A DNA stretch of 64,000 nucleotides from Isoetes taiwanensis (lineage: Eukaryota; Streptophyta; Lycopodiopsida; Isoetales; Isoetaceae), in the NCBI GenBank assembly GCA_021234155.1, contig JAJEKV010000046.1, positions 8,811,012 through 8,875,011 of the forward strand, given 5' to 3'. The notes under the pieces are model-generated. The model did no database searches, had not been told where the DNA came from, and saw nothing but the letters and a program-made list of their open reading frames with translations. Position 1 is the first letter of the stretch, and each line of letters begins with the position of its first letter. Both the position numbers and the translations under genes were made by a program. This document shows, piece by piece, positions 1-64,000 of the stretch.

Positions 1-1
1 G

Positions 2-1280: not shown

Positions 1281-1394
1281 GGTCCTCCATTTCTCATTTA
1301 GCACCCTGCAAGTTTGCTCTCCACTGCTTAGGCGATCTTTCAGCTCCCTGAGGCGCTTCTGCATCCGTTCGATACTCTCTTCTTCGCTAGATCA

Positions 1395-3126: not shown

Positions 3127-4900
3127 ATGGAAGAACAGAGTCCGCCCAGGCCACCTCCGGCAAGGAACCTGTTTGAGGAATTTGGACCCATGACCCCAGA
3201 AGAGGAAATATCCCAGATGAGGACGGACCTTGAGCAGATAAAGGCCTTGCTGGCCGCGCAAGCAGGAGCAGGTTCGGTGGGCAACGCTCAGTTGCCGCAA
3301 GCATCAGCTCGGAGAGCAGGAAGAGACAAGAAGAGGAACAAGAGAAGGAGATCCTCCAGCCCGGAATCTTCCAACTCAAGCTCAGATTCAGACTCCGACT
3401 CCGAGGAAGACGAAGAGCAGGCCCAGGACCGAACAGACGCAAGGCAGAGGAACACTGCAGATGCAAGGCAGAGGGACGCCATAGAAGGACGACAAAGGGA
3501 CACCAGGGCCTCTGACTACCAGAAGAAGGTAGATTCTGCACTGGGCAATGTATGGAAGGCCCGGAAACTGGAACAGTTCTCGGGGGAGAACAGGTCAGGA
3601 TTAGAAGCAGAGGCATGGCTGGACGAAATGAGTGAGTACGGCAATGCTTATGGCATGAAGGATAAAGACAAAGGCAGAGTGGCAACAGCCAACTTGAAAG
3701 GAGCCGCACGGATTTGGTGGAAGGGTTATGCAAAGGCACATGGCTTAAGCAGGGATGCTTGTAAGTTCAGAAAGTTTGCTAAAGCCTTCAAGCGCCATTA
3801 CGTCCCAAGGGAACATAAGTCCAGTATGATGCAGCAGTTCTACAGGTTGCAGCAAGGCAACAAATCTGTCCAGAAGTTTCATGAGGCTGAGGCTGTATGT
3901 ACCAAAATTGGGCGAGAAGCATGCAGTAGAAAGCTATATTGAGGGGCTGAATGAGGAGATCCGCAAGCTTGTGAGGGCAATAAACCCTAAGACAGTATCA
4001 GAAGCTGAGTCCAAGGCTATAAGCTTGCAAGGGACGGGACCTCAGAATAGCGGGCAGAGGCAGCAGTATTTCCAGGATAAAGGCAAGGCGACAGGAAGCT
4101 ATAGCCCTAGGGCAGCCAGTCCAGGTCCAGCTAGAACCCCATATGGTGGCAACCAGGGGAAGCAGCAGGAGAAGAAGCAGGTGTCCTTCAAGGACAAGCA
4201 GGAGGGGTCAAACTACTCCAAAGCGGTGCGATCCTTTTTGCAGGCGATGCCCAAGGAAAAGAGACAGGAGTGCATAGAAAAGCAGCTTTGCTTCAGGTGC
4301 TTCCAGCCAGGCCATAGGACAGCGAACTGCCCCTACGTCATGAGTGCAGCACTAGCGGAGTTGGGAGATTGGGACACTCTGTCTGACGACGACGGCGAGG
4401 AAGGCCGCGACTACATTCAGGGTGAGTGTCATATCTTTGCCGCAATAGATACAGAGCAAGCAGAGAGCCAGTATAAAGTAATTTCCACAGTAGGGAAGGC
4501 CAAGACCAAGTCCTTCATAGTCTTGATAGACTCAGGAAGTAGCCATAACTTTGCATCCCCCAGAATGGTTCAAATGTTGAAGTTGAAACCACTAAAGTCA
4601 AAGCCAAGGCCCGTTGTCTTAGCAAGTGGAGCAGTAAGGCAGACGGCAGGCAAGAGAATTAACTTCGACGTCGACTTACCAGGGATTAATATCCAGATGG
4701 GGGCAGAAGTAATGGGCATTGGCAAGTACGACTTGATCATAGGAATGGAGTACCTTGGACCAGCAGGGGCCATTATTGATTGTGGAAAGCGGAAGGTGAC
4801 CTTCCCAACACCCGACGGCAAGATCATTGAGATCACAGGTAAAGAAGTTGTTCCCATCATGCAGTGTATGTCTTTTAAACGCCTGTTCAAGTGCATCAAG
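3127..4900 (+). pseudogene. gag-pro: gag and aspartic protease (copy 1)
   Basis: Start chosen at ATG 3127 (MEEQSPPRPPPARNLFEEFG). The gag has a charged Ser-rich region (RRRSSSPESSNSSSDSDSD, about residues 75-100), a capsid-like region ([43 protein letters not shown]) and a CCHC zinc knuckle [14 protein letters not shown] at 4288-4330. The protease active site is DSGSSHNF near 4529-4552. A frameshift near 3890 splits capsid from nucleocapsid. In copy 2 gag, protease and RT are one open frame, so gag-pol is a single fused polyprotein in this family. Confidence 0.9.
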
Positions 4901-6352
4901 AGCGAGCAGGTAGCATCTTCAAGCTTGAGATTGATGAGCCAGAGTCAGAAGAAAGCAAAGAAGACAAGGTGCTCAGCAAGTTGCCGAAGCAAATAGCTAA
5001 GCTGATCACGGAGTTCCATGATCTCTTTCCAGATGAGATCAAGCAGCTTCCTCCTTACAGGGGAGTCGAGTGTGAGATAGCACTCGAACCAGGAACAAAG
5101 CCGACAAGCAAGGCTCCATACAGAATGACGACGCAGGAGTTGACGGAGCTGAAGAAGCAATTACAGGAATTGCTCGACCTAGGCTTCATTAGACCTAGTG
5201 TCTCGCCATTTGGAGCGCCATTCTCTTTGTAAAGAAGAAGGATGGTAGTTTAAGGATGTGCATAGACTATAGGCAGTTGAACAAGCACACCATTAAGAAC
5301 AAGTATGCGCTCCCGTGCATCGATGACTTGATGGATCAGCTCCAAGGTGCAAAGGTCTTTCCAAAATCGACTTAAGGTCGCTATCATCGATCAGGATAAA
5401 GGAAGAAGATATCCACAAGACCGCCTTCGGGGACGCTTGTATGGGCATTATGAGTTCACGGTAATGCCTTTCGGCTTATCGAATGACCCCCGCGACGCTC
5501 ATGAGGCTCATGAACGACATCTTCGTGGGAGTTTTAGACACCTTTGTGATTGTATTCTTTGATGACATTTTGGTGTATAGCAGATCCCTTGAAGAGAACG
5601 CACAACACTTAAGGAGAGTGCTAGAGAAGTTGAAGAGGCACCGGTTGTAATGCCAAATTGTCGGGCGTCACTTCGCGAATGAGAGAAGGTGGAATACCCG
5701 GGTCATGTGATCTCGCAGAAGGAATCTCGACGGATCCAGCCAAGATTGAAGCCGTCATTCAGTGGCCGGCGCCGAAGAATGTGCATGAAGTCAGAAGTTT
5801 TCGGCCTAGCAGTGGTACTACAGAAGTTCGGAAGAACTTTGCTAAGATAGCGCCCCTGCTTAACGGACTTGACGAGGGGAGAAGGTGAAAGATTGGGCGA
5901 GCATTGGCACAAAAACCCAAGCAGGATTTGAATTGTTGAAGGAAGTTTTTAACAACCGCCCAGCCTTAACCCTTGGGACGGAGAAAGACAAGCTTGTGGC
6001 GACAGATGCGAGTAAGATAGCTACAGGTGCAGTGCTCATGCAAGAAGAGCGTGTGGTAGCGTATGATTCCAGGAAGATGAATGACGCCGAAACGCGCTAC
6101 CCCACCCACGATCAGGAATTGCTTGCGGTTGTCAGGGCATTAAGAATTTGGAGGCACTATCTTTTGGGAAGGAAGTTCCAATTGGATACAGACCATCAGA
6201 GCCTCCAGTATGTATTCACGCAACCACACCTCAACCTGAGGCAGAGAAGGTGGATGGAGTTCCTTGAAGAGTATGACTTTGATATAGTTTACAAGCCAGG
6301 GAAGCTCAATGTGGTAGCGGATGCGCTTTCAAGGCATCCCCTGACAATTAGA
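4901..6352 (+). pseudogene. pol: Reverse transcriptase and RNase H (copy 1)
   Basis: RT motifs in order: [48 protein letters not shown], and FDDILVYS (about 5559-5583) holding the catalytic Asp pair. RNase H follows: [68 protein letters not shown]. Frameshifts occur near 4900, 5225, 5370, 5490, 5650 and 5880. At several of these, comparison with copy 2 shows CAG reduced to CG (for example GGTCAGG to GGTCG near 5386). Confidence 0.88.
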
Positions 6353-7892
6353 GTGCATTGCAATGCAATTTCGACGCTCTCCAGCGACTTTGGTAAGAAG
6401 ATTGAGGAGTCCTTGCCAACGGATGTGGATTTCAAGGAAGTATGGGCAAGCCTCTCTAGGGAGGCTAGAACAGATAAGGAGCGGGAAGCCTTTAAACATT
6501 ATAAGAAGGAAGGCAACCTGTTATACCATAAGAACAAGTTGTGCGTACTCGAATCATCAGGCGTAAGGAAATTGATCCTCCATGACACGCCCAATAGCTG
6601 GCCATGCGGGATTCATGAAAACATATTTCAAAGTGCGCAGTAGCTATTATTGGCCAGGAATGAAAAAGCAAGTAGCTCGCTACATCAAGGAATGTCAGCT
6701 ATGTCAGCAGACGAAGGCAGAACAACTTCGAATTCCAGGAGCATTAGAGCCATTAGCGGTGCCAAACGCCAAGTGGGAAGTGATCAGCATGGATTTTATA
6801 ACATGGCTTCCAAGGACAATAAGAGGGAAGGATGCCTTAATGGTAGTGGTCGACAAGTTGTCAAAGATGGCACACTTTGTGCCTTGCAGGACCACAGACA
6901 CCGCTATGGATACAGCAAAGCTCTTCACCAAAGAGATCTTTAGGCTTCATGGCATGCCAAGGGAGATCATCTCCCATTGTGGATCCAAATTCATGAGCCT
7001 TTTGGCAAGACCTCTTTACTGACGATTCAGACCAAGCTATCCATGAGCACGGGCTGTATCATCCTCGACGGATGGCCAAACGGAGCGGATCAACGGGGAT
7101 TTTGGAAGACATGCTACTTAAACTACGCCCCGAATAAGCAAGGTATGTGGGAAGAATTTATTCACTTGGTGGAGTTTGCATACAATAGCACCAAGCAGGA
7201 ATCATCCCAAATGTCGCCGTTTATGATTAATTACGGCTATCGATGTTTAACTCCCGGACACTTGGCACAACCCCCGTCAAAAGTAGAAGTTTCAAGCAGC
7301 CAGATGTTGGCCGACATGCAAAGCAGCTCGTGGAAGAGGTTCGAGGGTATCCGCTAGCAGCAAGGAGCCGACAAAGAGCATCGCCGACAAGCATCGAACA
7401 AATCGTGGAGTTCCGGTTGGCGACAATGTGTGGCTCAAGATCAAGGTGAAGCAGGCGAAGCTCAGGATCGGGAATTGCAAGAAGCTTGCTCCAAGGTGGG
7501 CTGGACCTTTCAGAATAGTCAAGAGAGTAGGTAATCAATCCTACAAGCTAGACTTGCCAGCACACCTAAAGATTCATAATGTCTTCCACGTGAGTTTGTT
7601 GAAGAAGCACACTCCAAATCCAGACGAAGTCTTGGACACTCCAACGTTATTGGAAATGACAGAGGAGCAGCTGGAAATAATTCCAGAATTGATTCTTGAT
7701 AAAGCTTTCAAGAAAACAAGGAGGTCGGAGTTCCTTCAATATTTGGTTAAGTGGAAACACTTACCGGTGGAAGACGCGACGTGGGTACTTAAGAAAGATC
7801 TAGTAAAGCAGTACCCGCAGTTTATGGAGCAATGGGACGACAAAGTCATCTCCGAAGAAATCGGCTCAGGCATGTCGATTTGTGTGGATTAA
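6353..7892 (+). pseudogene. int: Integrase with C-terminal chromodomain (copy 1)
   Basis: HHCC zinc-binding region (HAGFMKTYF .. CQLCQQTK, 6599-6720), catalytic core start ISMDFITWLP (about 6783), VVVDKLSKMAHFVPC, a damaged second Asp region near 6975, and VEFAYNST near 7170. After LAPRWAGPFRIVKRVG and HNVFHVSLLKKH comes a chromodomain (LQYLVKWKHLPVEDATWV, about 7737-7790), which defines the chromovirus branch of Ty3/gypsy. Chromodomains of this family direct integration by binding methylated H3 tails (known for the family). Frame breaks lie near 6600, 7000, 7230 and 7400; the last 155 codons are open. Confidence 0.88.
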
Positions 7893-8716: not shown

Positions 8717-8768
8717 AAGGTGGGGAGACCCACGATGCTGCGGACAACATCATTTCAAGGTGGGGAGA
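8717..8768 (+). promoter_or_regulatory. Duplicated polypurine tract
   Basis: AAGGTGGGGAGA occurs at 8717-8728 and again at 8757-8768. The second copy abuts the LTR start at 8770, where a plus-strand primer is expected in Ty3/gypsy elements. Confidence 0.75.
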
Positions 8769-8769
8769 A

Positions 8770-10338
8770 TGTGACGTTCCAGGACAGTATACGGTCCCAG
8801 GACGTATACTGTACTGCCTCGTCACGCGTACACGCCACTCCGACTGACGTGTACGCCGACGTGTAGCCAAGTGGGTAGCCCCTAGGGGGCAACTTGCTAA
8901 GAATGTGCATTAGTATTAATGTGCACATTTTCCAATGTACACATTAATGTGGGCACACATTTCCATGTGGGCACATTTTGCCACCTAGCCATTAAAGGCA
9001 AGTGGGCCCATTCCCAATTATCCCACATGCCTAAAGGGAATAATTGGAAACCCTAGCCAACCCCATGTCTATTTAAGGAGAGAAACCCTAACTTGCCCAT
9101 TTTTCGTTTCTAGGGTTTTAGAGCTCTGTTTTGGCTGCCTCAAGAGCCAAAACCGCCTCCCAGACTCTGCCTGAGAGAATTGCACCCTTAGTTTCCATTG
9201 ATTCGAGCGTTTCAGCAGGATGGTCGAACTCAGGTCAGGAGGAGCCACTCAAGGATCAGGTATTTGGCCAATTGAATAGTCTAAACCCTATTTCAATCAT
9301 AGAATCAGTAGGTTTAGCCTATTAAATTGCCCATATCAGCCTTCTAGATCTCTAGATACCAGACCCTAACTAAAGAACCTAACTCTATGATATAGATTAG
9401 ATATAGTTCTTTAGTTCTTCTGTGATATATATGGATGATGTATCTCTATGAACTCCTTGTATTGGGAAGGGGGGTAGAGACCTCGAGCTTGGTAGTAGAT
9501 GCTCCTAGATTAGCCTCTCTAGCACACTATAGATTCGGCATGTGTACAAGAACCACACCTGGTTGTGGGTGAAGGGGCCAGACTGGCTAAGAAGGAGGTT
9601 CCTGTTCTGACTCTTGAACGATCCCTCTGGTGTGTAAGGCCTACCGGGGATCATTGTGACTAGGTCTAATGGCTTACCACCGAGAGCGGTAAGGCATGGA
9701 CTCAACACCCGCGGAAGTGGGGTTCACTTTCCCTGGGTTCGGTAATACGGGCGGGGGCCCTCTAGTCACCTTGAGTCACAGTAGATCTCGGAGGGAGTGA
9801 TCCTTCCCGCCCCATCTGAATCGGGAGATGAAACCTTAAATAGCCCCTTTGGCTATGCATCCGGGCGGGCTACAGTCATGTGTCCCGACACTTTTCAGCC
9901 TACCGCAAAGTGTGCAATGTGAGGGGCGGATGGAGTGGACAACCCTATGCCATGTTCATATGCCGCCCAAATCCATTGTCATGAATTTCTCCCGCAATGA
10001 ATTCGAGACCCAAGCCGCCACCAACCCCTAAAGTCTGAGCCTTGGGTAGGACTCCCCATATGTATTGTGCTCACCTTGTTTATGCAGATGTGATGGACCA
10101 CCCTTCGAGGTGGATATGTGCTTATGCTATATAATCGACATGTATGTTTACGCTCCGCAGCCTAGGTAGGCCCCGAGGGAGACGGGTAAAATGACCCCTT
10201 CACTCTTCCCACCGGAACCCGCCACAAAAAAGGTGTCATGTGGAGGGCCCTCAGACGGGCACGGAGTCGGGTATGGGGATGAACTCCTGCTTGTATACCT
10301 CCGGTGAGTGCACCGTGATACAAGTAGGGGACGCCACA
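8770..10338 (+). repeat. 3' LTR of chromovirus copy 1 (1569 bp)
   Basis: Starts TGTGACGTTCC directly after the PPT and ends GGGGACGCCACA. Both limits are confirmed by the reverse-strand LTR of copy 2, which ends GGGGACGTCACA one base from the PBS. The two ends form an extended inverted repeat with GTATAC palindromes (8785-8811 at the left end). TATTTAAGG near 9070 is a possible LTR promoter, followed by AAACCCTAAC. The second half (about 9685-10338) aligns over its whole length with 40845-41502. Confidence 0.85.
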
Positions 10339-32728: not shown

Positions 32729-34165
32729 TTTTTTTTTATTGCAATGTCAAGGCTCAAGTTAGAAATACACTTGATAAGACAGTGTTGTTTACGTACTCGT
32801 ATTTTATGTTTACATACGTCTCGTACTTTCCTCACAGTAATATACGTTCTATACCTATAAGTTGACTGGTCAAATTGAGCTCTTGTTTTATTAATACTGT
32901 ACTTAACATATTAATAAGTACAGTACGTATAATACGTACTTAAAAAAAAGTCTTTAAATGACATTAGACCAATATAATTGGTAAATTTATGCATTAGGAA
33001 AAATACATTATTATATATTATAGAATTAGGAGACTTTAGACATTAGGGAAATTATGGAATTGTAGTTAAAATAAATAAATAAATAAATAAATAAAAACCC
33101 AATCTTCTTATAAATAAAAACCCAAAACCTCTGCATTTTTCTTCTCTTTCTTTTTACCCTAGCCGTGAATCAGAACAGAGATGGAGATGCAGCTCCACCT
33201 TTCTCCTTGTTTTGTCATGGCAGGGGGCAGACCTTCTCCTTAATACTTCAGTAGCTTGTATTCATGCAAGAAAGAAATACAGAGGTCAGCGTCAGTTAAT
33301 AGCTTCGGATTCAATAAATGAGCAACAATAACTTAAATTTATTTGTCTGTGGGTGTAGATTGCAAACTAGAATATGAAGAGATATAACTCTTAAATAGAC
33401 ATATTTTGGATTGAAAACTATGTTTTGCAAGGTCTTGAATAAGAAAAGCTTTGGTTACAAAGCAATGGTTACTATAGTATTTGCATGACAATGATTGAAT
33501 TATTTTCGTGTATAGTGATGTGAACAACATGTAATTTTCTTCTAGGGTCATTTGACCTATTGAGGCTATGAAGATGAAAAGCAAAAACATGGCTATGAAC
33601 ATAGATGCAAAAACCACGGCTATGAACATGGAAAGCAGGAAGAGTTGGAAAGGAGGAATGTAGAAATCACATTTTTAAGGTGTCAGACAAGTATATCTCA
33701 TGTTGAGGTTAAAGTAGTGACCATGTATTTGAAACTATTCATGGAATGACCATGGTGATCTAACCTTGAAATTGGATAAAGGGTCATTGGATTGAAATGC
33801 AGGATTTTTTACATGCATAAAAACACATCTCAAATGAATGGCCATGGTGTGATAGATATGGCATGGTAGACATGGTAAGCATGGAACTTTGTAAATGCTA
33901 AGGTAGGTGAATAAGGCAATTTGGAAAATGCCTTTTAGGGTTGCTTAACAAAGTTAGGGTTTCATCTAACGATGTTGTGGATGGAGCTCTGGATATTTGC
34001 TGCCAACAAACTGACAATACTTATTTCTTGAAAATAGAGGTAAGAAATACATCTGGAATTATGCATGCAACAGAAAGCAAATTGCTTAAGCGCTTCTGCA
34101 GACCAAGAACCGGTATTAGAGACACTGCCAGAGATTCACATAAATGGCATCAATCCGGCACATTC
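32729..34165. repeat. Repeat unit U, copy III, with about 950 bp of foreign or diverged DNA
   Basis: 32729-32780 matches 24010-24058 and 33740-34165 matches 24300-24740. 32781-33739 is absent from the other copies; it contains an inverted repeat ACTGTACTTA/TAAGTACAGT (32896-32924) and an (AAAT)n run (33068-33096). The unit ends abruptly at 34165 against chromovirus copy 2. Confidence 0.7.
33109..33243 (+). promoter_or_regulatory. Possible core promoter, leader and short ORF
   Basis: TATAAATA (33109-33116), a pyrimidine-rich leader TTTTTCTTCTCTTTCTTTTT, then ATG 33181 opening a 20-codon frame to TAA 33241-33243. The arrangement looks like a plant gene start, but no downstream exon is recognisable. 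It could be a fragment of a gene carried by the inserted segment. Confidence 0.25.
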
Positions 34166-36396
34166 TCTGAAGATGTCGTTCATGAGTCTCATGAACGTAG
34201 CTGGGGCGTTGGATAGCCCAAATGGCATTACGGTGAACTCGTAATGCCCATACCTGGTTCTGAAAGCTGTTTTGTGGATGTCCTCTTCCCTTATTCTGAT
34301 CTGGTGATAACCTGACCTTAGGTCGATCTTGGAGAAGACCTTTGCCCCTTGGAGCTGATCCATCAAGTCGTCTGATCTGGGGAGTGTGTACTTGTTCTTG
34401 ATGGTGTGCTTGTTCAATTGTCTGTAATCTATGCACATCCTCAAGCTTCCATCCTTCTTCTTGACAAAGAGGATGGGTGCCCCAAATGGTGAGACGCTAG
34501 GCCTGATGAAGCCTAGATCGAGCAATTCTTGTAACTGCTTCTTTAGCTCCGTGAGTTCATGTGTGGTCATTCTATATGGGGCCTTGCTCGTCGGCTTGGT
34601 CCCTGGTTCGAGTGCTATCTCACACTCTACTCCCCTGTAAGGAGGAAGCTTCTCGATCTCATCTGGAAAGAGATTATGGAACTCCGTGATCAAGTTGGCG
34701 ATTCGCTTGGGCAACTTGCTGAGCACTTTGTCTTCTTTGCTTCCTTCCGACTCGGGTTCCTCAACCTCGAGTTTGAAGATGTATGCTACCTGCTCGCTCT
34801 TTATAGACTTGAGCAGCTGCTTAACAGACATACACTGCATGATGGGAGTGACTTCTTTATCTGTGATCTCAATGGCTTTGCCGTCGGGCGTTGGGAAGGT
34901 CACCTTCCGCTTTCCACAATCAATGATGGCCCCTGCTGGTCCAACGTACTCCATTCCAACGATCAAGTCATACTTGCCAATGCCCATAACTTCTGCCCCC
35001 ATCTGGATATTAATCCCTGGCACGTCGATGTCGAAGTTGATCCCTTTTCCAGCTGTATGTCTTACTGCTCCGCTTGCCAAGATTACGGGTCTTGGTTTGG
35101 ACTTTAGGGGTTTCAATTTCAACATTTCAACCATCCTCGGGGATGCGAAGTTATGGCTACTTCCGGAGTCTATCAAGACTATGAAAGACTTGGCCTTTGC
35201 CTTCCCTACTGTGGAGATTACCTTATACTGGGTCTCTGCCTGTTCTGTATCTATAGCAGTGAAGATGTGGCACTCACCCTGAATGTAATCGCGTGCTGCC
35301 TCGCCGTCCTCATCTGACGGAGTGTCCCATCCGCCCAGTTCTGCTAGCGCTGAGCTCATAACAAATGGGCAATTCGCCGTTCGGTGGCCCGGCTGGAAAC
35401 ATCTAAAGCAGAGTTGCTTCTCTATGCATTCCTGCCTTTTCTCCTTGGGCATCGCCTGTAAGAAGGACCGTACTGCTTTGGAGTAGTTGGAACCTTCCTG
35501 TTTGTCCTTGAAGGACACCTGCTTCCTTTTCTGTTGTTTCCCCTGGTTGCTATTGTATGGGGACTTTGCTGGACTTGGGTTGGCTGCCCTAGGACTGTAG
35601 CTCCCTGTTGCTTTGCCTCTATCCTGATAGTAAGGTTGCCTCTGTGCATTGTTCTGTGGCCTGGATCCTTGCAAACTAATTGCCTTGGATTCTGCTTCTG
35701 ATACTGTTTTAGGGTCTATTGCCCTTACAAGTTTCCTGATTTCCTCGTTCAGCCCTTCTATGTAGCTTTCCACTGCGTGTTTCTCGCTCAGCTTCGGCAC
35801 ATACAGCCTTAGTCTCATAAACTCTTCGGTGTACTTCTGCACTGTCTTGTAACCTTGCTGCAATCTGTAGAACTGCTGCATCATATTTGACTTGTGTTCT
35901 CGAGGAACATAGTGGCGCTTGAAAGCTTTTGAGAACTTCTTAAATCGGCATGCATCTCTGCTCAAACCATGGGCCTTGGCATAGCCCTTCCACCATATGC
36001 GTGCGGCCCCTTTCAGGTTGGATGTTGCCACCCTGCTTTTGTCCTTATCCTTCATGCCGTAGGCATTGCCATACTCGCTCATTTCGAGTTTATGGGCTTT
36101 CCATACATTGCCCAGTGCTGAGTCCACCTTCTTCTGGTAATCCAGGGCCTTAGTGTCCTTCTGTCTGCCGTCCCTACGGTCCGGCGCCTGCTCGGCCTCT
36201 TTCTCGGACTCAGAATCCGAGTCGAGCTTGAGTCGGAGGTCTCTGTGCTAAGGGACCTCCTTTTCTTACTCCTCCTCTTGTCTTTCCCCGACTTCCGGGG
36301 TGTCGTTTGTGGCCCGGATGATGCTTGGGCTGCTAGTAGGGCCTTTATCTGGTCCAGCTCTGTTCGCATCTGCGACATCTCCTCTTCTGGGGTCAT
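34136..36396 (-). pseudogene. gag-pol: gag-protease-RT polyprotein of copy 2, truncated
   Basis: A single frame covers 36127 to 34136 (about 660 codons): capsid part ([20 protein letters not shown]), zinc knuckle [14 protein letters not shown], protease DSGSSHNF, then RT with [28 protein letters not shown] and [19 protein letters not shown]. The first part of gag (from MTPEEEMSQMRTEL, 36396) is in another frame. Compared with copy 1 about 20 residues after VWKA.KLE are deleted. The last six or so codons come from the flanking repeat, so RT lacks its catalytic FDD motif. The ORF shows that gag, protease and RT are translated as one chain. Confidence 0.88.
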
Positions 36397-36680: not shown

Positions 36681-38179
36681 CTATTCTTGATATCGCCGGT
36701 AGGATGGATTATCCTCTAGGAACTTCTTCGCTTGGGCTGTTCCCACTGAATGACCTAAGTTCCTAAGGACGTTGACCGAAGATCCACCCTGCAAAGCTCT
36801 TGCCAAATCTTCTATCCTGCGCTCGGAGGTATAGGCGGCGGTCACTGCCAGTCTTCCCTGCCGTCTGTAAGGTATGGCGAAGTAATCGAGTGCTACCACT
36901 CTCTTCACCAGGATGGCATACTCTGTATTGGGAGCTAACCGAGCATGCCGGCCAAAGCCTGAGAGCGCAATTAGCATCGATACTCCTTCCTCGCCTCTGG
37001 GGGTGAATTTGCGGTGAATTTGCGGTGAATTACCGCTATTCTTCCATCCATCAGCAGGGGAAGGTAATACCGCAACGACCTATCGTTGTGTGACGGGTCC
37101 TCGCCTCCTCGGCCTCCAACTCTGTGTCTGCCGGCATAGTCTTTGACTGTTGCTGAAGCTCTCCTTAGGTCGAACTCGCCTCTTCGCTCTCGGGGGGGCG
37201 TTGTCGAAGAACTTGCCGTTAAGATGTTAGAGGTCGCGTGGCGGATCCCCATCTGTTCCTGTAGAGCAAGGAACTCTTCCTCCGTCGGTAGTTGCCCTGC
37301 CTCCATAATCTGCCTGATATTGCTATAGGCTTGAATGTCGGAGGTGGACTCTCCCGTATAAGTGTCGGCTTCCCTTACTTGGAGTGGGAAGTCGAAAGTT
37401 CCTCGGACGATGAAGTCGTCCAGGTCTGTTCTCCGGAGTTGGTGCAGCAACTCGTCAGGTCGATACTCCCTTTCCCTGCACTCCGGGAGGTTCTGGATGT
37501 CGCTTAAGAGCAAGTACTCTTCGCCCTCGACGATGATGGGGGCTAGGCTTGTGATGCCTAGCCCAATGGGTGGCGCTATCCTGAGAGTTTGCCGGCTTCT
37601 TTCGAATTCTTGCAACTCTTGTTCTGCTAGCCGCTGCTCTTCCGCTGGGTCGAGCTCGACGTAGTCGTCATCTTCTTCTTCCGACTCCTCGTCTTCTTCC
37701 TTTCCTTCTTGCTCGTGTTCATACTGCGAAAGGAGCTGTTGTGCTGCTGCGGTGGCTAATGGGTCCACGTCCATGGGGGAAATGGAGGTTTCTCCCATGG
37801 GGTTCTCGTCACGGTGGATAAGAAAAATTGCTAACGCAGCGTTGAAAGAGAAGTACTTGGTCCTGTTGATAGTCAGGACCATTGGTTCGGGCATGCGCTG
37901 GGCCTTGTTTGTGAGATACTTGGCAATGTTAGGAACATCGCCTAAGGCTACTTGAAGGGATTGCCTAGGAACAAAGTAGCCTATGCAAGGTAGAAGCTGC
38001 ACTAATGATGGCTCTACCCTAGCTTGGAATTCTGACAGGACTCTGCTATATGCTGGGGTTGCGTGCAAGGTTGCTCGGACATCTATTTCTTTCCGGAAGA
38101 CCCGGAAAATTTCATCGATGTCAGCCTCGGCAGCATGAGCGCTGGCGCTGTACCATCGCCTGAAATCAGAAGTTGCCAT
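36681..38179 (-). pseudogene. ORF B of copy 2 (one frameshift)
   Basis: Start at ATG 38179 (MATSDFRRWYSASAHAAEAD). The upstream in-frame ATG at 38215 lacks counterparts in the other copies. The frame is open to about 36975, then shifted and open again to the stop at 36681-36683. The break coincides with an 11-bp tandem duplication (GGTGAATTTGC twice, about 37000-37030). An acidic run (KEEDEESEEEDDDYVELD) lies in the middle. The N-terminal block around ALGDVPNIAKYLTNKAQR and the C-terminal block YYLPLLMDGRIAVIHRKF..GFGRHAR are strongly conserved with copy 1. No known family recognised. Confidence 0.8.
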
Positions 38180-38293
38180 GAGTTTAGCGAGGAAGAGACT
38201 AGCAAACGGATGCAAGAGCGCCTCAGGGAGCTGGAAAATTGGCTAAGGGGGCAGGAACAAACTCGTAGGGTGCTACGTATGAAATGAGGGACC

Positions 38294-38301
38294 TATTTAT
38301 A
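38294..38301 (-). promoter_or_regulatory. TATA box of ORF B (copy 2)
   Basis: TATAAATA on the minus strand, 115 bp before the ATG at 38179, the same spacing as in copy 1. Confidence 0.65.
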
Positions 38302-38492
38302 GAAAAGGGAAAAACCCTAATTTTTGGGGGACTTGGAAAATTCTTGGGATTGGGCAATTCCAGCCTATATTGAGGTCAAAATGGGAATTGGAAGACTAAT
38401 TTAAGGGTTTGAGCATGACTGGATTACCTAAAGATGCTACTACAACAGGTTGAAGATCATTTGAACAAGTTATGGTGAAGAAATGGTAGGAG

Positions 38493-38559
38493 GTCTCACA
38501 GGTAGCGCCTCGTTCAAAAGCTACACTTTAGTTTCTTGACCAGGCGCGACGTGTGAGAT
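38493..38559 (-). repeat. 67-nt hairpin H3 upstream of ORF B
   Basis: In element sense the 5' arm is TCTCACACGTCGCGCC, identical to copy 1. The apical stem (TCAAGAAACTA with TAGCTTTTGA) differs from copy 1 but still pairs. Confidence 0.9.
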
Positions 38560-38692
38560 ATCAGTCCCATTTTGATCAAAACATGTCCAGTTTGGGTAAA
38601 ATAAGGGTGTAAGGATGATAGACTTATCAAATTAGGCAGGATTGACCCCTTAATTGGTCAATTTGGAGCTGTTTTGGGCAAATTTGGGCAAG

Positions 38693-38759
38693 GTCTCACA
38701 GCTAGCGCCTCGTCCAAAAACTAAACTTTAGTTTCTTGACCAGGCGCGATGTGTGAGAC
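38693..38759 (-). repeat. 67-nt hairpin H4 upstream of ORF B
   Basis: Starts exactly 200 bp from H3. Apical stem AAGAAACTAAA/TTTAGTTTTTG. Confidence 0.9.
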
Positions 38760-38902
38760 ATCACACTTTTTGGTCTGAAAATGTTCTATTTTACTAAAAC
38801 AAAAACTACTACTTGCTAATTTGTCCTAATTAAACAAGTTCAGGCACATAAAGTGCTCAAAATTGATTTATATTACAAAATTTTCGATTATTTACAGAAT
38901 GT

Positions 38903-40199
38903 TTAAGGGCGTTCTCCCTTAATGCGACTAGCAAGATACATGTCTTGCCTCATAAGGGTTACTCGCTTTGCATGAACGGTGCAAGCTGTCGAGTCTTCAA
39001 AATGTTGCACTATCTTCTGCTCAGCCGCTTCCTGCAGTGCCAGCAGCATCTCATCTATGACCCTCATGCCAGTGTTGAAGTCCTGCATGACTTCTCTGAC
39101 TAGACGGGCAAAGGGGGCATGGGGAATCAGGAGGCCGTAACTGCGCTGGAAGTGCCGAATCTCGCGTAGTGCTCTTTGCTCGGTCTCCTTCCTGGTGAGC
39201 TTCTTCTTGGCTGGCTTTTTCGGGACCTTGGGCTTTGGTGGTGGCGGCCTTAATGTCTGCTGCTTTGTTGGATGTCCACCCTCGATGGTCCTGACCCTGT
39301 TCTCCTGGTAGTAGGAGTTGTAAGCCTCCCACTCCTTCATGTATGCCTCGTGCTCCCTCATCTTTCTCTCATAGATCTTGACGGGGTTCGTGACATAAGA
39401 CTCTCGGGCAGGTCGTGGTTGCTTTTTCCTGTCCCACTTCGGATAAGGAGGGGGCTTCTGCACTTGGTCCTGCTGCTCCCGGTCGGGTTGCTCCTGGTTG
39501 GATATTGGCTGCTCGTCACCTGGGGGCTTAGAAGAGCTTCCCCCTTCGGTGTTGGGGATGTAGTCCTCGTCAGAGGAGTCGCCGGAGGAGTTCGGTGGCT
39601 GGTCAGGGGGCCGTTCAGTAATCACAATCTTGGGGTTGGGCTTCTTTACTTGTGGGACTTCCTTGAGTTTCCTTGGGCTCCCCACAAATTTCCCTTTCTT
39701 CTGCTTGAGTTCCTCTGCCACTTTCGCCTCCGCCTCTTCTCTCTTCCTCCTCCTGCTTTCCCTGCGGCGTTGTTTTGCTTCATGCTTTGCGATCCAGGCT
39801 ACGAGGTCTTCCTCTTCACTTGGCTCGAGCCTTGGCTTGCTAAAGCTCTTGCAGCTCTTACGCTTCTTTTCGCGAATCGGGCTTGACTTGTTCCTCTATG
39901 GTGCGGCTCACGGTGCCGGCAATCTCTTTTCTTAGCGAGCCTTGGTCCTCTGCTCATTTGTGCTCCCTCCTCTTCTTCCTCAACTATCTCCGTTCCACCT
40001 TGCAGTCGCATCTTCTTCGGTCGGTCTGCTGGCCTATCTCCTCGTTTACGCTCTTCCGCGATGCTCTCCTCACTTTCGAAGATAGTCGACCTCCCCTCAT
40101 GACGAGCCTCTCGAAGCATCTGGTGAATGAGATTGGCGTCGTGGCCCTTGGGGTTTTCGCTGGGCCGGGCTTTCTGGCGTCTGCTTGAAGTAGTGCCAT
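38903..40199 (-). pseudogene. ORF A of copy 2, histone H3/CENH3-like accessory protein
   Basis: The main frame is open from 39895 to the stop at 38903 (about 330 codons) but has no ATG at its 5' end. Likely coding continues upstream in other frames to ATG 40199 (MALLQADARKPGP), 77 bp after a TATA box, which implies two frameshifts and a protein of roughly 430 residues. The N-terminal part is basic/acidic and Pro-rich (VEEEEEGAQM, RRRESRRRKREEAEAK, PPPPKPKVPKKPAKKK). Residues at 39172-38906 form the H3 core: ALREIRHFQRS, LLIPHAPFARLVREV, DFNTGMRV, LALQEAAE, FEDSTACTVHAKRVTLMRQD, IKGERP. About 74 of 89 residues equal copy 1 and about half equal canonical H3, without gaps (counted by eye). Known H3 C110, H113, R116 and D123 equivalents are kept. 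Confidence 0.88.
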
Positions 40200-40275
40200 G
40201 TTTGACGGTTCGACAATCGGATATCGGGCGCCAAAGATCGCCTTAGGGAGCGGGAGCAGATTTCAAGTCTACTTC

Positions 40276-40283
40276 TATTTATA
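40276..40283 (-). promoter_or_regulatory. TATA box of ORF A (copy 2)
   Basis: TATAAATA on the minus strand, 77 bp before ATG 40199 and 104 bp after the nearest hairpin. Same octamer as before ORF B. Confidence 0.6.
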
Positions 40284-40386
40284 GTTTGGGCAAATTTTAG
40301 GTCAAAATTCAAGTTGCTGTTTTTAAGATGCCAAGGCACCTATTTACTTAAAACATACAATTATTTCAGAGTTTTTCCAATTATTG

Positions 40387-40827: not shown

Positions 40828-40843
40828 CATGGCTCTGATACCA
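40828..40843 (-). promoter_or_regulatory. Primer binding site (initiator Met-tRNA type)
   Basis: Minus strand TGGTATCAGAGCCATG, one base after the LTR end. This is the usual plant Ty3/gypsy and Ty1/copia PBS and fixes ORF A as the first gene after the PBS. Confidence 0.9.
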
Positions 40844-40844
40844 T

Positions 40845-41502
40845 TGTGACGTCCCCTACTCGTATACGATGCCCAAGACCGTATACAAGCGGGGAGTTCA
40901 TCCCCCGCACCAGCTCCACAGCGATCTGGGGCCCTCCACATATCACTGTGACCGTCTAGAGTCCCCAGTGGGAAGAGTGAAGGGGTCATTTTACCCCGTC
41001 TCCCTCAGGGCCTACCTAGCTGCGGAAGCGTAAACATACACGTCAGTAACATAACATCATATATCCACCTCGAAGGGCGGTACATCAACATCTGCGTAGA
41101 CAAAGATCAGCACAATACAAGGAAGTTCCTACCCAAGGCTCAGACTCCAGGGGAATGACTGACAAGCTTGGGTCTCCAGAGTTCAGTGCAGACAGAATCA
41201 TGACAATGGATTGGGCTGGCATAAGCACATGGCTTAGGGTTGTCCACTCCATCCGCCCCTCCTGTGCACACTTTGCAGAGTAGGTTGAAAAGTGTTGGGA
41301 CCTGACTGTAGCCCGCCGGGTGCATAGACAAAGGGGCTATTCCTGGGTTACATCTCCCCAGTCCCGATGGGGCAGGTAGGGATTACCCCCTCCAGAGATC
41401 TACATGCTGACCCAAGGTGACTAGAGGGCTACTGCCCTTATTCGACTTAACCCACTGGAAGGTGAACACCACCCCACGGGTGTCGAGCCCATGCCTTATC
41501 TA
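40845..41502 (-). repeat. 5' LTR of copy 2, 3' part only
   Basis: In element sense it ends GGGGACGTCACA and aligns over about 650 bp with 9685-10338 of the copy 1 LTR (for example GGGCGGATGGAGTGGACAAC and GGAGACGGG.TAAAATGACC). The match stops at AAGGCATGG (about 41498), where unrelated DNA begins. Confidence 0.88.
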
Positions 41503-57249: not shown

Positions 57250-57372
57250 GGACTTCCCAAAACTGCTCCAAATCTAATTAAATAAAGGGTTAATTCTGCC
57301 TAACGCCGAAGTTTAGTAGAATTACAGCCTAGATTATCCAAATTGATTAAGTTTAGCCCATTTAGAACCCAT

Positions 57373-57446
57373 GTCTCACCGCGTCGCGCCCGGAGGGCGA
57401 GAAAATGAACTTTTCATTGCTCGATTGCAGGCTTAACGGTGAGAAC
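57373..57446 (+). repeat. Degenerate counterpart of hairpin H2 in copy 3
   Basis: GTCTCACCGCGTCGCGCC at the start and AACGGTGAGAAC at the end; the apical stem AAAATGAA/TTCATT is partly kept, and the length is 74 rather than 67. Confidence 0.6.
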
Positions 57447-57619
57447 CTCATATTTTCTTCACCAAATGATCTCCAAATTGTTGCAATAGGTTCATTAGCC
57501 CATCTTAGCATGCTCAAACCTAGAAGTAGTCTTCAAACTCTCAATTGCACCCTTTAATAGAACAGAATCACCCAATCTCGAAAAGTCTAGGTCACCCAAA
57601 AATTAGGGTTTTCCCTTTT

Positions 57620-57627
57620 TATAAATA
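57620..57627 (+). promoter_or_regulatory. TATA box of ORF B (copy 3)
   Basis: TATAAATA 117 bp before the ATG at 57737; conserved within disrupted surroundings. Confidence 0.55.
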
Positions 57628-57736
57628 GGTCCTCCATTTCTCATTTAGCACCACAAGTAGTTTGCTCTCCAACGCTTAAGCGTCTTTTCTCCAGGCGCTT
57701 ACGCATCCGTTCGATACTCTCTTCTTCGCTAGATCA

Positions 57737-59227
57737 ATGGCCCTTCTTGACTTGAGGCGATGAATACGGCCCGGTGCCCATGCATCTTTGCCGGATGTCA
57801 ACGACATCTTCCAAGTCTTTAAGGGAAAGAAATTGATATCCAAGCTTCACGCTAAATGCAACCCGGCATATAGGCAAGTGTTAGCGGTTTCAAGCTAAGG
57901 GTAGGACCCTCCCTTGTTCCAGGGTTCCCCTTGCATAGGATATTTCGTTTCCCATCCCATCCCTTGGCGACCTTGGGTGATGTCCCCAACATCGCCAAGT
58001 ACCTAACTAACAAACCAGAGGCTGCGGACTACATGGTCGACAAACATGGAACTGGGCATTTCTCCTACACCACCGCCCTAGCTATTTTTTCTTCTCCCCA
58101 CCGCCCGAAAACCCAATGGGGGCAACCTCTATCCCTCCGATGGAGGTGGACCCCATAGCAGCGCAAGCAGGGAGCAGATGCTTACTGCGACGCAAGAGCG
58201 AGGAAGGAGCAGAGGAAGAAGAAGAGGAGTCTGACGACAATAAGTACACCGAACTCGACTCCGGAGGAAGAAGCGGCAACAAGCGTAATGATGAGTCTGG
58301 TCAACTTCGGAAAGCAGAGCAGCGCATTCATCGAGTTGCTCCCCCACTTGGGCTAGGCATCACAAGCCTAGCCCTATCATCATCAAACGGGAGAGGAGTA
58401 TTTACTCCGGCGACATCCAGAACCTTCGAATCCGGGGGAGGGAGTCGGATTGATGAATCTGCGCCACCCGGCTACGGCGGTCCGACTTGGGCGACTTCGC
58501 CGTCCAGGAGCCTCCTGACTTTCGCTTCAAGTGAGGGAGGCCGACACCTACGAAGTCGACTTGACATCGGGGCCGCATCGGGCAAATGATGGGCGAACTG
58601 CCAATGGAGAGAGTTCCTGCGCCTCAAGAACAAATGGGGATGGTGGGAAGACCCGCGAGCATCTTAATGGCCGACCTTGACACCACCCCGGCAAGAGGAG
58701 CGGGGAATGCGACCTCAGCGAAGTCGACTCCCCACAATTGAAGACTACCGGAGCTCACGAGATAGAGGTTGGCGAATCTGTAGGAGGCTGACATAGAGCG
58801 AGAGGCCAAACAAGTGGAGAATCATCCGGCACGCTGTACGACCAGATCCACGAGGTACTACACTGCCCATTTGCTGCTGGATAAGAGAGTAAGGTGATAC
58901 ACACATAAGTTCAGCCCGTGAGGTGAGGAAGGGGTGTTCATCTTGATTGCACTCGGGCTTGGCGGGCATGCTCGAATAGCGGCAAGCGTCGACTATGCTG
59001 TCCTAGTCAAGAGGGCAATGGCACTTGACCTCTTCGACTTAGCCATACCCCATCGGCGGCTGGCCCGAGATTGGCGACCCGCCCTTACAGCCGGCCAGCG
59101 AGGGTGGAAGAGCTGGCGAGAGCCTTGCAGAGCGGCTTCGTCGGCATTGTCATCGAGGAACTTGGGTCATTGGGTAGGAGCGCCCAAGTTAAAAATTCCT
59201 TGAAGTCTTCTGCGATTCCAAGACTAG
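57737..59227 (+). pseudogene. ORF B of copy 3
   Basis: ATG 57737, stop region at 59225-59227. Fragments LGDVPNIAKYLTNK, PLGLGITSLAL, VDYAVLVKRAMALDLFDLAIPHRR are readable in three frames. It has too many frame breaks to code for anything as sequenced. Confidence 0.75.
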
Positions 59228-59448
59228 TTAGACTCTTGATCCAGGAGACTTTTGTACTAAAATATTATATAATATATGAATATAATTTACATTTGCACTT
59301 TAAATGTTTTGTTGATGTATTTTGCCCCACAACTATACCAACAAACATAAACAATACAAGAGAACAAGTAAAACTAACCATATAGCCATGAATTACTTGT
59401 GTATGCGCGGTTAGAGGCATAAGCTCGGAACGACAACGCCCAGACCAT

Positions 59449-61515
59449 ATGGAAGAAACGAGTCGCCCAGGCCACCTCCGGCAAAGGAACCCGTTTGGAA
59501 TTTGGACCCATGACCCCAGAAGGAAATATCCCAGGATGAGGGGCCGACCTTGGCGGATAAAGGCCTTGGCGGCAGCTGTAGCAAAGGCGGAGTTAGGTGG
59601 AGCAGCAGCTTCGATTCGCATAAGCTTACCGCGGCTTCAGGAGGAGCAGGAAGAGACAAGAAGAGGAACAAGAGAAGGAGATCCTCCAGCCCCGGAATCT
59701 TCCAACTCAAGCTCGATTCAGGCTTCCGTCCTCCGAGGGAAGACGAAGAAGCGGGCGGAAGGACCTAACAGGGGCGCAAGGCGAGGAACACTGCCGGATG
59801 CAAGGCGAGGACGCCATAGAAGGATCGACAAAGGGACACCGGGGCCTCGACTACCGAAGAAGGTAGATTCCGCACTAGGCAATGTATGGAAGGCCGAATG
59901 GAGCAGTTCTCGGGAGAACAGTCGGGATTAGAAGCGAGGCATGGTCGATCGAAATGAGTGAAATGCGGCAATGCTTATAGCATGAAGGATAAAGACAAAG
60001 GCGAGTGGCAACAACCAACTTGAAAGGAGTCATGGATTTGGTGGAAGGGTTATGCAAAGGCACATGGCTTAGCGGGGATGCTTGTAAGTTCAAGAAGTTT
60101 GCTAGAGCCTTCAAAGCCCATTACGTCCCAAGGGAACATAAGTCGATTATGATGCGGCCCGTTCTACAAGGTTTGCGGCAAGGCAACAAATCATCCGAAG
60201 TTTCATGGCTGAGGCTGTATGTACCAAAATTGGGCGAAGCATGCAGTAGAAAGCTATATTGAGGGGGCTGAATGAGGAGATCCGCCAACGGCGTGAGGGC
60301 AATAAACCCTAAGACGTTATCGAGCCGAAGTCCAAGGCTATAAGCTTGCAAAGGGCCGGGACCTGGAATAGCGGGCGGCGGCAGTATTTCGGGGATAAAG
60401 GCAAAGGCGACGGAAGCTATAGCCCTAGGGCAGCTGATCCAGTCCAGCTAGAACCCCATATGGTGGCAACCGGGGGCGGCGGGGAGAAAGAAGCGGTGTC
60501 CTTCAAGGACAAGCGGGGAGGGTCAAACTACTCCAAAGCGGTGCGATCCTTTTACGGCGTGCCCAGGAAAAGAGCGAGGAGTGCATAAAAGCGGCTTTGC
60601 TTCGTGCTTCAGCCAACCCTTAGAGACGTGGCCCCCCACGTCATGAGTGCGGCACTAAAAGCGAGTTGGGAGATTGGGACACTCTGTTCGACGACGACGG
60701 CGAGAAGGCCGTGACTACATTGAGGTGAAGTGTCATATCTTTGCCGCCAATGGAATCTGAGCAAGCAGAAACCCAAGATAAAGTAATTTCCACGAGGGAA
60801 GGCCAAGACCAAGTCCTTCATAGTCTTGATAGACTTTCGAAGTAGCCATAACTTTGCATCCCCAGAATGGTTCAAATGTTGAAGTTGAAACCATTAAAGT
60901 CAAAGCCAAAGGCCCGTTGTCTTAGCAAATTGGAGGCGGTAAAGCGCATCGGCGGGCAAGAGAATTAACCGGCGTCGACTTACCAGGGATTAATATCCGG
61001 ATGAGGCGAAATAATGGGCATTGGCAAGTCTGACTTGATCATAGGAATGGAGTACCTTGGACCAGCGGGGGCCATTATTGATTGTGGAAAGCGGAAGGTG
61101 ACCTTCCCAACACTCGGCAAGAAGATCATTGAGATCCGCGGGTAAAGAAGTTGTTCCCATCATGCGTGTATGTCTTTTAAACGCTTTGTTCAAGTGCATC
61201 AAGAGCGGCGGTAGCATCTTCAAGCTTGAGATTGATGAGCGAGTCGAAGAAAAGCAAAGAAGACAAGGTGCTCGGCAAGTTGCGAAGCAAATAGCTAAAG
61301 TTGATCACGGAGTTCCATGATCTCTTTCGGATGAGATCAAGCGGCTTCCTCCTGAGGAGTGAGTGTGAGATAAAGACTCGAACCCGGGGAACAAAAGCCG
61401 ACAAGCAAGGCTCCATACGGAATGATGGCGGCGAGGAGTTGGCGAACTGAAGAAGCAGTGCAATTGCTTGACCTAGGCTTCATTAGACCTAGTGTCTACG
61501 CCATTTGGGCGCCAT
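59449..61515 (+). pseudogene. gag-pro: gag and protease of copy 3
   Basis: ATG 59449 corresponds to copy 1 ATG 3127. [42 protein letters not shown] and the DNA of the protease region (60825-60870) are recognisable. The zinc knuckle (about 60595-60635) has lost its Cys pattern through indels. Confidence 0.8.
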
Positions 61516-63980
61516 TCTCTTTGTAAAGAAGAAGGATGGTAGTTTAAGGATGTGCATAGACTATAGGCGGTTGAACAAGCACACCATTAAGAACAAGTAT
61601 GCTCCCCGGTCGAGATGACTTGATGGATCAGCTCCAGGTGCAAAGGTCTTCTCAAAAATGCGACTTAAGGTCGGAGCTATCATCGATCGGGATAAAGGAA
61701 GAAGATATCCACAAGACCGCCGCCTTGAGGGCCTTGGTATGGGCATTATGAGTTCACGGTAATGCCTTTAAAACTATCGAATGACCCCGGCGTTCATGAG
61801 GCTCATGAGCGACATCTTCGAGGAGTTTTAGACACCTTTGTGATTGTATTCTTTGATGACATTTTGGTGTATAGCGATCCCTTGAAGAAGGATTACAAAC
61901 ACCAAGGAGAGTGCTAGAGAAGTTGAAGAGGCACCGGTTATGCATGGAAATTGTGAAAGTGTCACCGCCTTGAAGGGTGGAATACCCGGTCATGTGATCT
62001 CGGAAAAGGAATCTCGGCGGATCCAAAGGTAAGATTGAAGCCGCCATTCGGTGGCGGCGCCAAGAATGTGCATGAAGTCAAGTTTCTACCGGCCTGGCGG
62101 TACTACGGAAGTTAAGTGAAGAACTTTGCTAAGATAAGCGGCCCCGGATTAACGGACTTGACGAGGAGAAGGTGAAAGATTGGGCGAGCATTGGCACAAA
62201 ACCCAAAAGCAGGGATTTGAATTGTTGAAGGAAGCTTTAACAACCCCCGATCTTAACCTGCTTGGGACCGGGAGAAAGAAAGCTTGTGGCGTGCGAATCA
62301 CGAGTAAAGATAGCTACAAAAAAGTGCTCATGCAAGAAGAAGCGTGTGTGGCGTATGATTCGAGGAAGATGAATGGCGCGAACGCGGCTACCCCACCCAA
62401 TGATCGAGGGTTGTTTACTTGGTTGTCGGGGGCATTAAGAATTTGGAGGCACTATCTTTTGGGAAGGAAGTTCCAATTGGATCACGCACCGCCGAGCCTC
62501 CCGTATGTATTCTTGCCAACCACACCTCAACTGAGGCGAGAGAAGGTGGATGGAGTTCCTTGAAAAGTATGACTTTGATATAGTTTACAAGCCGGGGAAG
62601 CTCAATGTGGTAGCGGATATGCTTTCAAGGCATCCCCCGACAATTAGAGTGCATTGCAATGCAATTTCGACGCTCTCCAGCGACTTTGGTAAGAAGATTG
62701 AGGAGTCCTTGCCAACGGATGTGGATTTCAAAGGTATGGGCAAGCCTCTCTAGGGAGGCTAGAACAGGATAAGGATGGAAGCCTTTAAACATTATAAGAA
62801 GGAAGGCAACCTGTTATACCATAAGAACAAGTTGTCGCGTGCTCGGGAATCATCGGTAAAATTGATCCTCCATGACCGCCCAATAGCTGGCCATGGGGAT
62901 TCATGAAAACATATATTTCAAAGTCTTGCGATAGCTATTATTGGCCAGAATGAAAAAAGCAAGTAGCTTCGCTACATCAAGGAATGTCAGCTATGTCAGC
63001 GAGCGGCTGAGAACAACCGAATTCGGGAGCATTAGAGCCATTAGCGGTGCCAAGCGCCAAGTGGGAAGTGATCGACATGGATTTTATAACATGGCTTCCA
63101 AGGACAATAAGAGGGAAGGATGCCTTAATGGTAGTGGTCGACAAGTTGTCAAAGATGGCACACTTTGTGCCTTGCGGGACCACAGAACACGCTATGGATG
63201 CAACAAAGCTCTTCACCAAAGAGATCTTTAGGCTTCATGGCATGCCAAGGGAGATCATCTCCGGCGAGGATCGAAATTCATGAGCCTTTTGGCAAGACCT
63301 CTTTCACGACGATTGACCAAGCTATCCATGAGCGCGGCGTATCATCCTCGAGCCCAGGACGGATGGCCAAGCGGAGGAGGCGGATCAGCGGGATTTTGGA
63401 AGACATGCTTTCTGAAACTACGTCCGGAATAAGCAAGGTATGTGGGAAGAATTTATTCACTTGGTGGAGTTTGCATACAATAGCACCAAGCGGAATCATC
63501 CCAAATGTCGCCATTTATGATTAATTCGGCTATCTCGATTACTAACTCAGGACACTTGGCACAACCCCAGGTGTCAAAAGTAGAAGTTTAAAGCTGAGAT
63601 GTTGGCCGACATCACAGCGGCTTCGTGGAAGAGGTTCGAGGGTATCTGCTAGCAGCAAGGAGCCGACAAAAGAGCATCGCCGACAAGCATCGAACAGTCA
63701 GGGAGTTCGAAGTTGGCGACAATGTGTGGCTCAAGATCAAGGTGAAGCAGGCGAAGCTCAGGATCGGGAATTGCAAGAAGCTTGCTCCAAGGTGGGCTGG
63801 ACCTTTCAGAATAGTCAAGAGAGTAGGTAATCAATCCTACAAGCTAGACTTGCCAGCACACCTAAAGATTCATAAGGTCTTCCACGTGAGTTTGTTGAAG
63901 AAGCACACTCCAAATCCAGACGAAGTCTTGGACACTCAACGTTATTGGAAATAGCGGAGGCATTTGAAATAATTCCAGGT
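61516..63980 (+). pseudogene. pol: RT, RNase H, integrase of copy 3 (runs off the window)
   Basis: RT DNA with the FDD region at about 61850-61875; RNase H pieces KMNGANAATPPNDRG and [20 protein letters not shown]; integrase core DMDFITWLPRTIRGKDALMV (63076-63135); LAPRWAGPFRIVKRVG (63781-63830). The final 350 bp return to an open frame almost identical to copy 1. The chromodomain lies beyond the end. Confidence 0.82.
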
Positions 63981-64000
63981 TGATTCTTGATAAAGCTTTC

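Follow-up and report, generated by a model that had tools for sequence, protein, structure and literature searches.

The window, a 64,000-nucleotide stretch of the Isoetes taiwanensis genome (GCA_021234155.1, contig JAJEKV010000046.1, positions 8,811,012 to 8,875,011), contained three copies of a Ty3/gypsy retrotransposon (Table 1). In copy 2, a reading frame ending in a histone H3 core (ORF A) was located between the primer-binding site (PBS) and gag and was followed by a second gene, ORF B. The preliminary description had placed ORF A at the same position in two diverged copies. Copy 2 showed the order PBS, ORF A, ORF B and gag; copy 1 starts within ORF A, and its PBS lies outside the window. 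The rest of the order was common to copy 1: ORF A, ORF B, gag-pol, polypurine tract and 3' LTR. Both copies were real, but they belong to a total of at least 142, and copy 3 of the window is without the ORF A region. Since copy 3 is 5'-truncated, it has no bearing on the ORF A question. ORF A of copy 2 had been read as one frame; its 5' part was found to shift frame twice, and the longest open piece is 38903–39721 (272 aa).

Table 1. Positions of the retrotransposon features in the window.
Feature	Position	Strand	Remarks
Partial 5' LTR, copy 2	40845..41498	-	abuts PBS; 78.6% identity to 9690-10338 (end of copy 1 3' LTR)
PBS TGGTATCAGAGC, copy 2	40832..40843	-	exact match
Two hairpin repeats, leader 5' of ORF A, copy 2	40385-40641	-	family D5
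TATA-like box 5' of ORF A, copy 2	40275..40284	-	read from sequence
ORF A, copy 2, H3-like protein	38903..40199	-	ATG 40199, stop 38903; frame broken in its 5' part, open only from 39721
H3 histone core, ORF A of copy 2	38906..39172	-	profile, PDB, local alignment
Two hairpin repeats, ORF A-ORF B spacer, copy 2	38491..38763	-	family D5, 79-92% identity
TATA-like box 5' of ORF B, copy 2	38293..38302	-	read from sequence
ORF B, copy 2	36971..38179	-	ATG 38179; runs on downstream in another frame
gag - protease - RT start, copy 2	34136..36127	-	Retrotrans_gag 1.1e-17, RVP_2 1.8e-8, RVT_1 7.7e-23
3' part of ORF A, copy 1	1..682	+	one in-frame stop; H3 core 413-679; PF00125 9.6e-30
Hairpin repeats, copy 1	825-900, 1024-1099		
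TATA-like box 5' of ORF B, copy 1	1272..1281	+	read from sequence
ORF B, copy 1	1395..2904	+	ATG 1395; frame-broken
gag-pol, copy 1	3076..7892	+	several frame breaks
Integrase C-terminal chromodomain, copy 1	7680..7844	+	PF00385 E=5.6e-11, residues 85-139 of frame 7428-7889
Polypurine tract, copy 1	8757..8769	+	adjoins 3' LTR; read from sequence
3' LTR (TG...CA), copy 1	8770..10338	+	read from sequence; end matches copy 2 5' LTR
Copy 3, 5'-truncated, starts 3' of ORF A	57256..64000	+	87% identity to 908-7709

The profile search of copy 2 gave the gag, aspartic protease and reverse transcriptase (RT) order of Ty3/gypsy elements. By-eye reading of copy 1 and of the class II elements described below suggested an integrase core after RT-RNase H. 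The integrase chromodomain claimed earlier was recovered in copy 1, where a Tf2-1-like SH3 domain precedes it. LTRs, a PBS and a polypurine tract were all present, as in a Ty3/gypsy chromovirus, and the PBS is one that we take to be of the initiator-Met tRNA type. The H3-like gene thus resides in an LTR element and not in an arrangement of terminal inverted repeats (TIRs) and hAT transposase, as in hAT-H3L.

Hairpin repeats, imperfect and each about 70 nt long, stand in pairs 5' of ORF A and of ORF B, and may have a regulatory or insulator-like role. The pol of copy 2 ends at about 34169, where it is broken off by other repeats; these occupy 24332–34166 and are direct repeats about 90% identical and roughly 3 kb apart. 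Frames resembling remnants of LINE endonuclease/RT were seen at 10148–10594 (-) and 13910–15610 (+). The Pfam match of the LINE-like frame 14918–15607 to RVT_1 was below threshold (E = 0.071).

Element families in the genome

The genome searched comprised 1,658,258,908 bases in 1110 contigs. The search with ORF A found a family, alpha, in at least 142 places (at least 143 rows, one match being split) with 71–100% identity. Open frames in alpha reached 493 aa, and ORF A lay in one open frame of 407–444 aa in 10 of the 30 alpha loci cut out. The PBS 12-mer TGGTATCAGAGC was exact in 23 of these loci, 290–411 nt into the locus, and ORF B was the next gene in 29. The adjacent ORF B and the purifying selection on the core described below upheld the claim that ORF A travels with the element.

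The sole relative of ORF B found was the protein P0121 (43% identity to ORF B of copy 2, E = 1.3e-87). The genome search with P0121 gave 86 rows of a second family, epsilon. An H3 core was found 5' of ORF B in all eight epsilon loci (six whole, two in pieces), and no member without ORF A was seen among them. Alpha and epsilon were grouped as class I. The fern CENH3-like protein P0042 was used as the query for class II. Among the 150 rows listed, 59 were in open frames of at least 400 aa and 82 in frames of at least 300 aa. Thirty loci were cut out: 15 were ordinary 136-aa H3 genes, some with longer frames, and 15 were element-type H3 loci with another N-terminal domain (beta 9, gamma 4, delta 2), which together form class II.

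Two class II loci, L069 and L070, were read over 9.5 kb and showed a PBS-like site followed by the H3 gene, a gene resembling ORF B, a further ORF, gag and pol. This third gene, ORF C (L069 4160–4669, -; L070 4612–5127, +), lies between ORF B and gag and has a product of about 170 aa; its L069 copy had no Pfam match. The pol of L069 and L070 was mutually 90% identical over 580 aa and 55–84% identical to pieces of window copy 1, and delta ORF B matched P0121 with 24% identity over 243 columns (E = 8.8e-10). The likeness of pol and of delta ORF B indicated that the order H3, ORF B, gag-pol is common to classes I and II.

For at least 5 of 48 RT matches, the H3s listed included one on the same strand and no more than 15 kb upstream, in three cases at 5.5 kb. 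Two RT loci were read 4.0–6.5 kb upstream: L078 belonged to alpha and had both ORF A and ORF B, and L077 had neither. L077 (G000:C1042:6407900-6410500) lies upstream of a gypsy RT in an open frame of 1518 aa. Gypsy elements without the H3/ORF B module probably exist, as judged from this one locus, whose stretch might be misplaced for its layout.

ORF B had no Pfam family above the cut-off, and its structure model, built from three sequences, had a mean pLDDT of 38.7. Alignment scans of viral contigs gave no relative of ORF B, of ORF A or of P0037/P0057, two H3 proteins with another extension. The gag-PR-RT protein search, made among the 8000 candidates sharing most words, returned distant gypsy proteins of mixed hosts, which did not help the classification. 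The TATA-like box TATAAATA was present before ORF A in 30/30 alpha loci and before ORF B in 29/30. The E2F-like sequence TTTGGCGC was found between the TATA box and the ATG in 21 of the 30 alpha loci, against 0.4 expected from mononucleotide shuffles, the copies being related. It is a hint of an S-phase promoter for ORF A. The E2F-like site is not a feature shared with class II, where single weak matches were found in 2 of 10 loci.

The histone core and its extension

The cores of copy 2 (39172–38906) and copy 1 (413–679) aligned to H3 without a gap, as first described. PF00125 matched copy 2 with E = 3.6e-26 (92.2 bits) and copy 1 with 103.8 bits (cut-off 26.4), and class II and intact class I proteins scored 138.9, 144.1 and 99.9 bits. 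The copy 2 core matched H3.3 in the PDB with E = 4.7e-26. Local alignment to H3 of the same genome scored 249 for copy 2 and 271 for copy 1; the best of 500 shuffles scored 58 and 57. On structure, an H3-type three-helix core was obtained. Among the 120 matches listed for the ORF A protein (617 passing, 872 candidates), none spans more than 56% of the query, so the extension is absent from the listed proteins.

The H3–H3' interface residues had been described as kept, and the counts across element loci agreed. In the 28 readable alpha rows (30 loci cut out), the H3–H3' and DNA contact residues R69 and R72 were kept in 28, R83, C110, H113 and D123 in 27, and R116 in 24; K115 was also kept in 27. 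Departures from plain H3 in alpha were R63 to P (28/28), K56 to R (27/28), K122 to Q (22/28) and R128 to S (22/28). The changes at R63, R128 and K122 might make DNA binding weaker. All scored sites, including 63, 122, 128 and 56, had the H3 residue in the rows of beta (9), gamma (4) and delta (2). Epsilon (4 readable of 8) had P63, and its other scored sites were H3-like except R128.

Selection was estimated by pooled Nei-Gojobori dN/dS. The copies share descent, so that pairs do not count as independent, and synonymous sites approach saturation. For the core of copy 1 against copy 2, dN/dS was 0.064 (bootstrap 0.03–0.17; saturation at synonymous sites left 216 of 300 resamples usable). The same pair gave 0.064 for gag/PR and 0.212 for the N-terminal part of ORF A. 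In alpha (10/30 loci), the values were 0.062 for the ARTKQTARK tail (15 columns), 0.218 for the insert and 0.091 for the core. Values before the core and for the core were 0.159 and 0.049 in beta (6/9 loci), 0.292 and 0.026 in gamma (2/4), 0.126 and 0.049 in delta (2/2), and 0.022 and 0.025 in ordinary H3 genes (7/15). The results showed purifying selection on the H3 core in alpha, beta, gamma, delta and the window pair. A conserved core with a faster extension is as expected if entry into chromatin is constant and the displayed part is adapting.

These values bear on whether the gene is a passenger, that is, an H3 cDNA transduced and copied along with no role for the element. Most gene captures by transposable elements are such passengers, and the frame is broken in copy 1 as well as in copy 2 of the window. 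However, the low core dN/dS in four families and in the window pair, the constant position, with H3 at 8/8 ORF B loci and ORF B at 29/30 alpha loci, and the occupation of one or few copies by such captures, as given in the available part of PMC7264820, all speak against it. A passenger gene is already strongly disfavoured and has only a very small probability. The preferred reading is that a Ty3/gypsy lineage keeps, between PBS and gag, a gene for a variant H3 that has a large N-terminal extension or an insert in its tail. Its core, place, spread and selection were computed here and its role in the nucleosome we infer; taken together, this reading is probable.

The plan of the alpha protein was a canonical H3 tail, a charged insert of about 300 aa and then the H3 core. 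ORF A started exactly with MARTKQTARK in 17 of the 30 alpha loci cut out, and K4 and K9 were both present in 22. In several of the latter a frameshift parts the tail from the core, and the ARK tail and the core lay within one open frame in 8/30 loci. The stretch joining the insert to the core aligned with the second part of the H3 tail (GG..T..Q.L), which suggests that the alpha insert sits inside the tail, near K9. ORF A of the epsilon locus L064 also started with MARTKQTARK and had a stop 42 codons on. The K4, K9 and K27 motifs had been thought to be missing; K4 and K9 seemed absent because the start of copy 2 is mutated, while K27 and K36 were indeed not recognisable in class I by eye. Class II proteins had no ARTKQTARK tail at their start. 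The beta, gamma and delta extensions formed one family (profile probability 99.9–100) and were unrelated to those of alpha (0.5 or less).

The class I tail (17/30 exact, K4 and K9 in 22/30, dN/dS 0.062) is what would be kept if its ARTKQTARK end titrated host writers and readers of H3K4 and H3K9 outside nucleosomes. Such a decoy leaves the selection on the histone fold unexplained, and class II is without that tail at the start, so tail mimicry cannot be a function common to both classes. A decoy is therefore very unlikely, and a variant H3 kept for the nucleosome is preferred.

Resemblance to CENH3 was mixed. Several alpha-1 residues resemble those of CENH3, and loop 1 was of H3 length as first described; it was not longer than in H3, had no plant RW motif and lacked the Trp of all plant CENH3 rows aligned. 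In the H3/CENH3 tree, a grouping of class I with plant CENH3 was not rejected (p-AU 0.33) but was absent from the best tree. Beta, gamma and delta formed a clade (99/95) within canonical H3, beside the genome's own H3, and alpha and epsilon formed a clade with long branches (100/96). All these trees are limited by long branches and 95 columns. On a centromere reading, ORF A would be a CENH3 taken over by the element to mark centromeres or to exploit them, and the chromodomain integrase would target the same places. This would account for the RHFQ and LLIP.APF-type residues, the P at 63 as in angiosperm CENH3 rows and the p-AU of 0.33. The H3-length loop 1 without Trp, the position of class II within canonical H3 and the weak clustering of copies do not fit, and a centromere device is improbable.

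A single clade of all element H3 had a log-likelihood lower by 20.95 and was not rejected (p-AU 0.098). The shared gene order argues for a single uptake of H3, whereas the cores and the unrelated extensions argue for two uptakes or for replacement. P0037 and P0057 grouped with class I (96/92). Their extension, however, was unrelated by profile, and the proteins are absent from the genome, where the best match had 61% identity.

Other N-extended H3 proteins were observed in the searches. P0065, P0004, P0008, P0015, P0059, P0045, P0090 and P0104 form an H3-variant family whose N-terminal extension is a different one. Since P0065 by itself represents 156 member sequences, it may be another multi-copy, mobile H3. 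P0007, P0058, P0067 and P0081 form a further N-extended family on contigs of about 10–28 kb, and in P0007 a long insert comes after a canonical H3 tail at the start. P0055 (330 aa) has precomputed Pfam domains of histone and of the ASF1 chaperone family (PF04729), and is a possible chaperone-H3 fusion.

Known systems and possible roles

No histone-coding retrotransposon was found in searches of the open-access literature, in line with the earlier statement that no such Ty3/gypsy element is known to have been described. The nearest precedent comes from Pyrenophora tritici-repentis, where a hAT DNA transposon includes an ORF similar to H3 (H3L), according to the available part of PMC3538342. There, too, the H3-like ORF belongs to a mobile element and is multi-copy, and ESTs are given for hAT-H3L. 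The hAT element is a DNA transposon with TIRs, and its 26 H3L genes, all in one species, are young and nearly identical (PMC3538342, in part). In contrast, the Isoetes elements are LTR retrotransposons of several diverged families with a long extension, purifying selection and a fixed place before gag. Mobile elements with an H3-like gene were thus known once, and the new finding is a gene kept across retrotransposon families.

The Isoetes elements share the gag-PR-RT order, the integrase chromodomain, the LTRs and the initiator-Met-type PBS with plant Ty3/gypsy chromoviruses (PMC6317226, PMC3350952). They differ by the addition of ORF A and ORF B before gag, and in class II also of ORF C. The available part of PMC6317226 mentions no histone gene; "histone" occurs there once, about H3K9 binding. 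Plant LTR retrotransposons with additional ORFs (PMC7264820 and PMC12786077, available parts) likewise carry an accessory gene of host origin, which may act against control by the host, such as the AlkB-type demethylase of an orchid Ty3/gypsy lineage (PMC12786077). In the Isoetes elements the product is a core histone encoded before gag, whereas the site between pol and the 3' LTR is commoner elsewhere (PMC7264820, available part), a text in which the word "histone" does not occur. The word was also absent from the available main texts of the I. taiwanensis (PMC8566536) and I. sinensis genome papers.

Giant DNA viruses and a bracovirus, the latter with H4, also encode core histones in a parasite genome (PMC9145170, available part). 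These are DNA viruses and their histones are often fused doublets, unlike the Isoetes elements; "retrotransposon" and "retrovirus" do not occur in the available review text. By analogy, ORF A might package the RNA of the element or its cDNA before integration, much as the histones of giant viruses pack viral DNA. The protein is basic and histone-like, and viral histones form nucleosomes. However, H3 without an H4 partner makes no particle, and no H4-like gene was present among the window ORFs or in the two class II elements that were read. A role in the particle or on cDNA is accordingly hardly probable.

A variant H3 acting in host nucleosomes is preferred. The ORF A protein would be produced in the nucleus, perhaps under a TATA-type promoter of its own, and its conserved H3 interfaces would let it pair with host H4. 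It would be built into nucleosomes, with the element-specific extension projecting from chromatin. More speculatively, such nucleosomes might protect new or existing copies from silencing, or mark a landing site for the integration complex.

For a landing pad, the extension would bind integrase or Gag, and new copies would enter chromatin that holds the variant. The integrase chromodomain and an extension that differs by class on a core that remains H3 are consistent with it. Alpha copies were clustered about twofold (24 pairs within 1 Mb against 12.0 expected; 4 within 100 kb against 1.17), a mild excess of close pairs that also fits, but such weak clustering could reflect ordinary genome heterogeneity or duplications. 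This integration tether is rather unlikely, though not remote. Interference with silencing and a landing pad were regarded as the two best uses of the protein, and we lean slightly towards the former.

Keeping an own H3 under selection suggests that the elements help to build the chromatin they inhabit. A bolder form of the variant-nucleosome reading is offered tentatively, with the balance somewhat against it: the H3 would be ancient and obligate, taken up once or twice, and would act in nucleosomes with its extension to decide targeting and silencing, as a histone-variant system competing with that of the host.

Because 15 of the 30 loci in one H3 search were of the element type, counts of H3-like ORFs in such genomes may include transposon genes. 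Hosts silence transposons largely via marks on histone H3. If the reading is true, an H3 supplied by the element would hit silencing at its substrate; one class has kept the K4/K9 tail, and the other bears a bulky domain that looks folded. Histone-variant function, integration targeting and arms races would then be testable as a natural experiment across the families of one genome.
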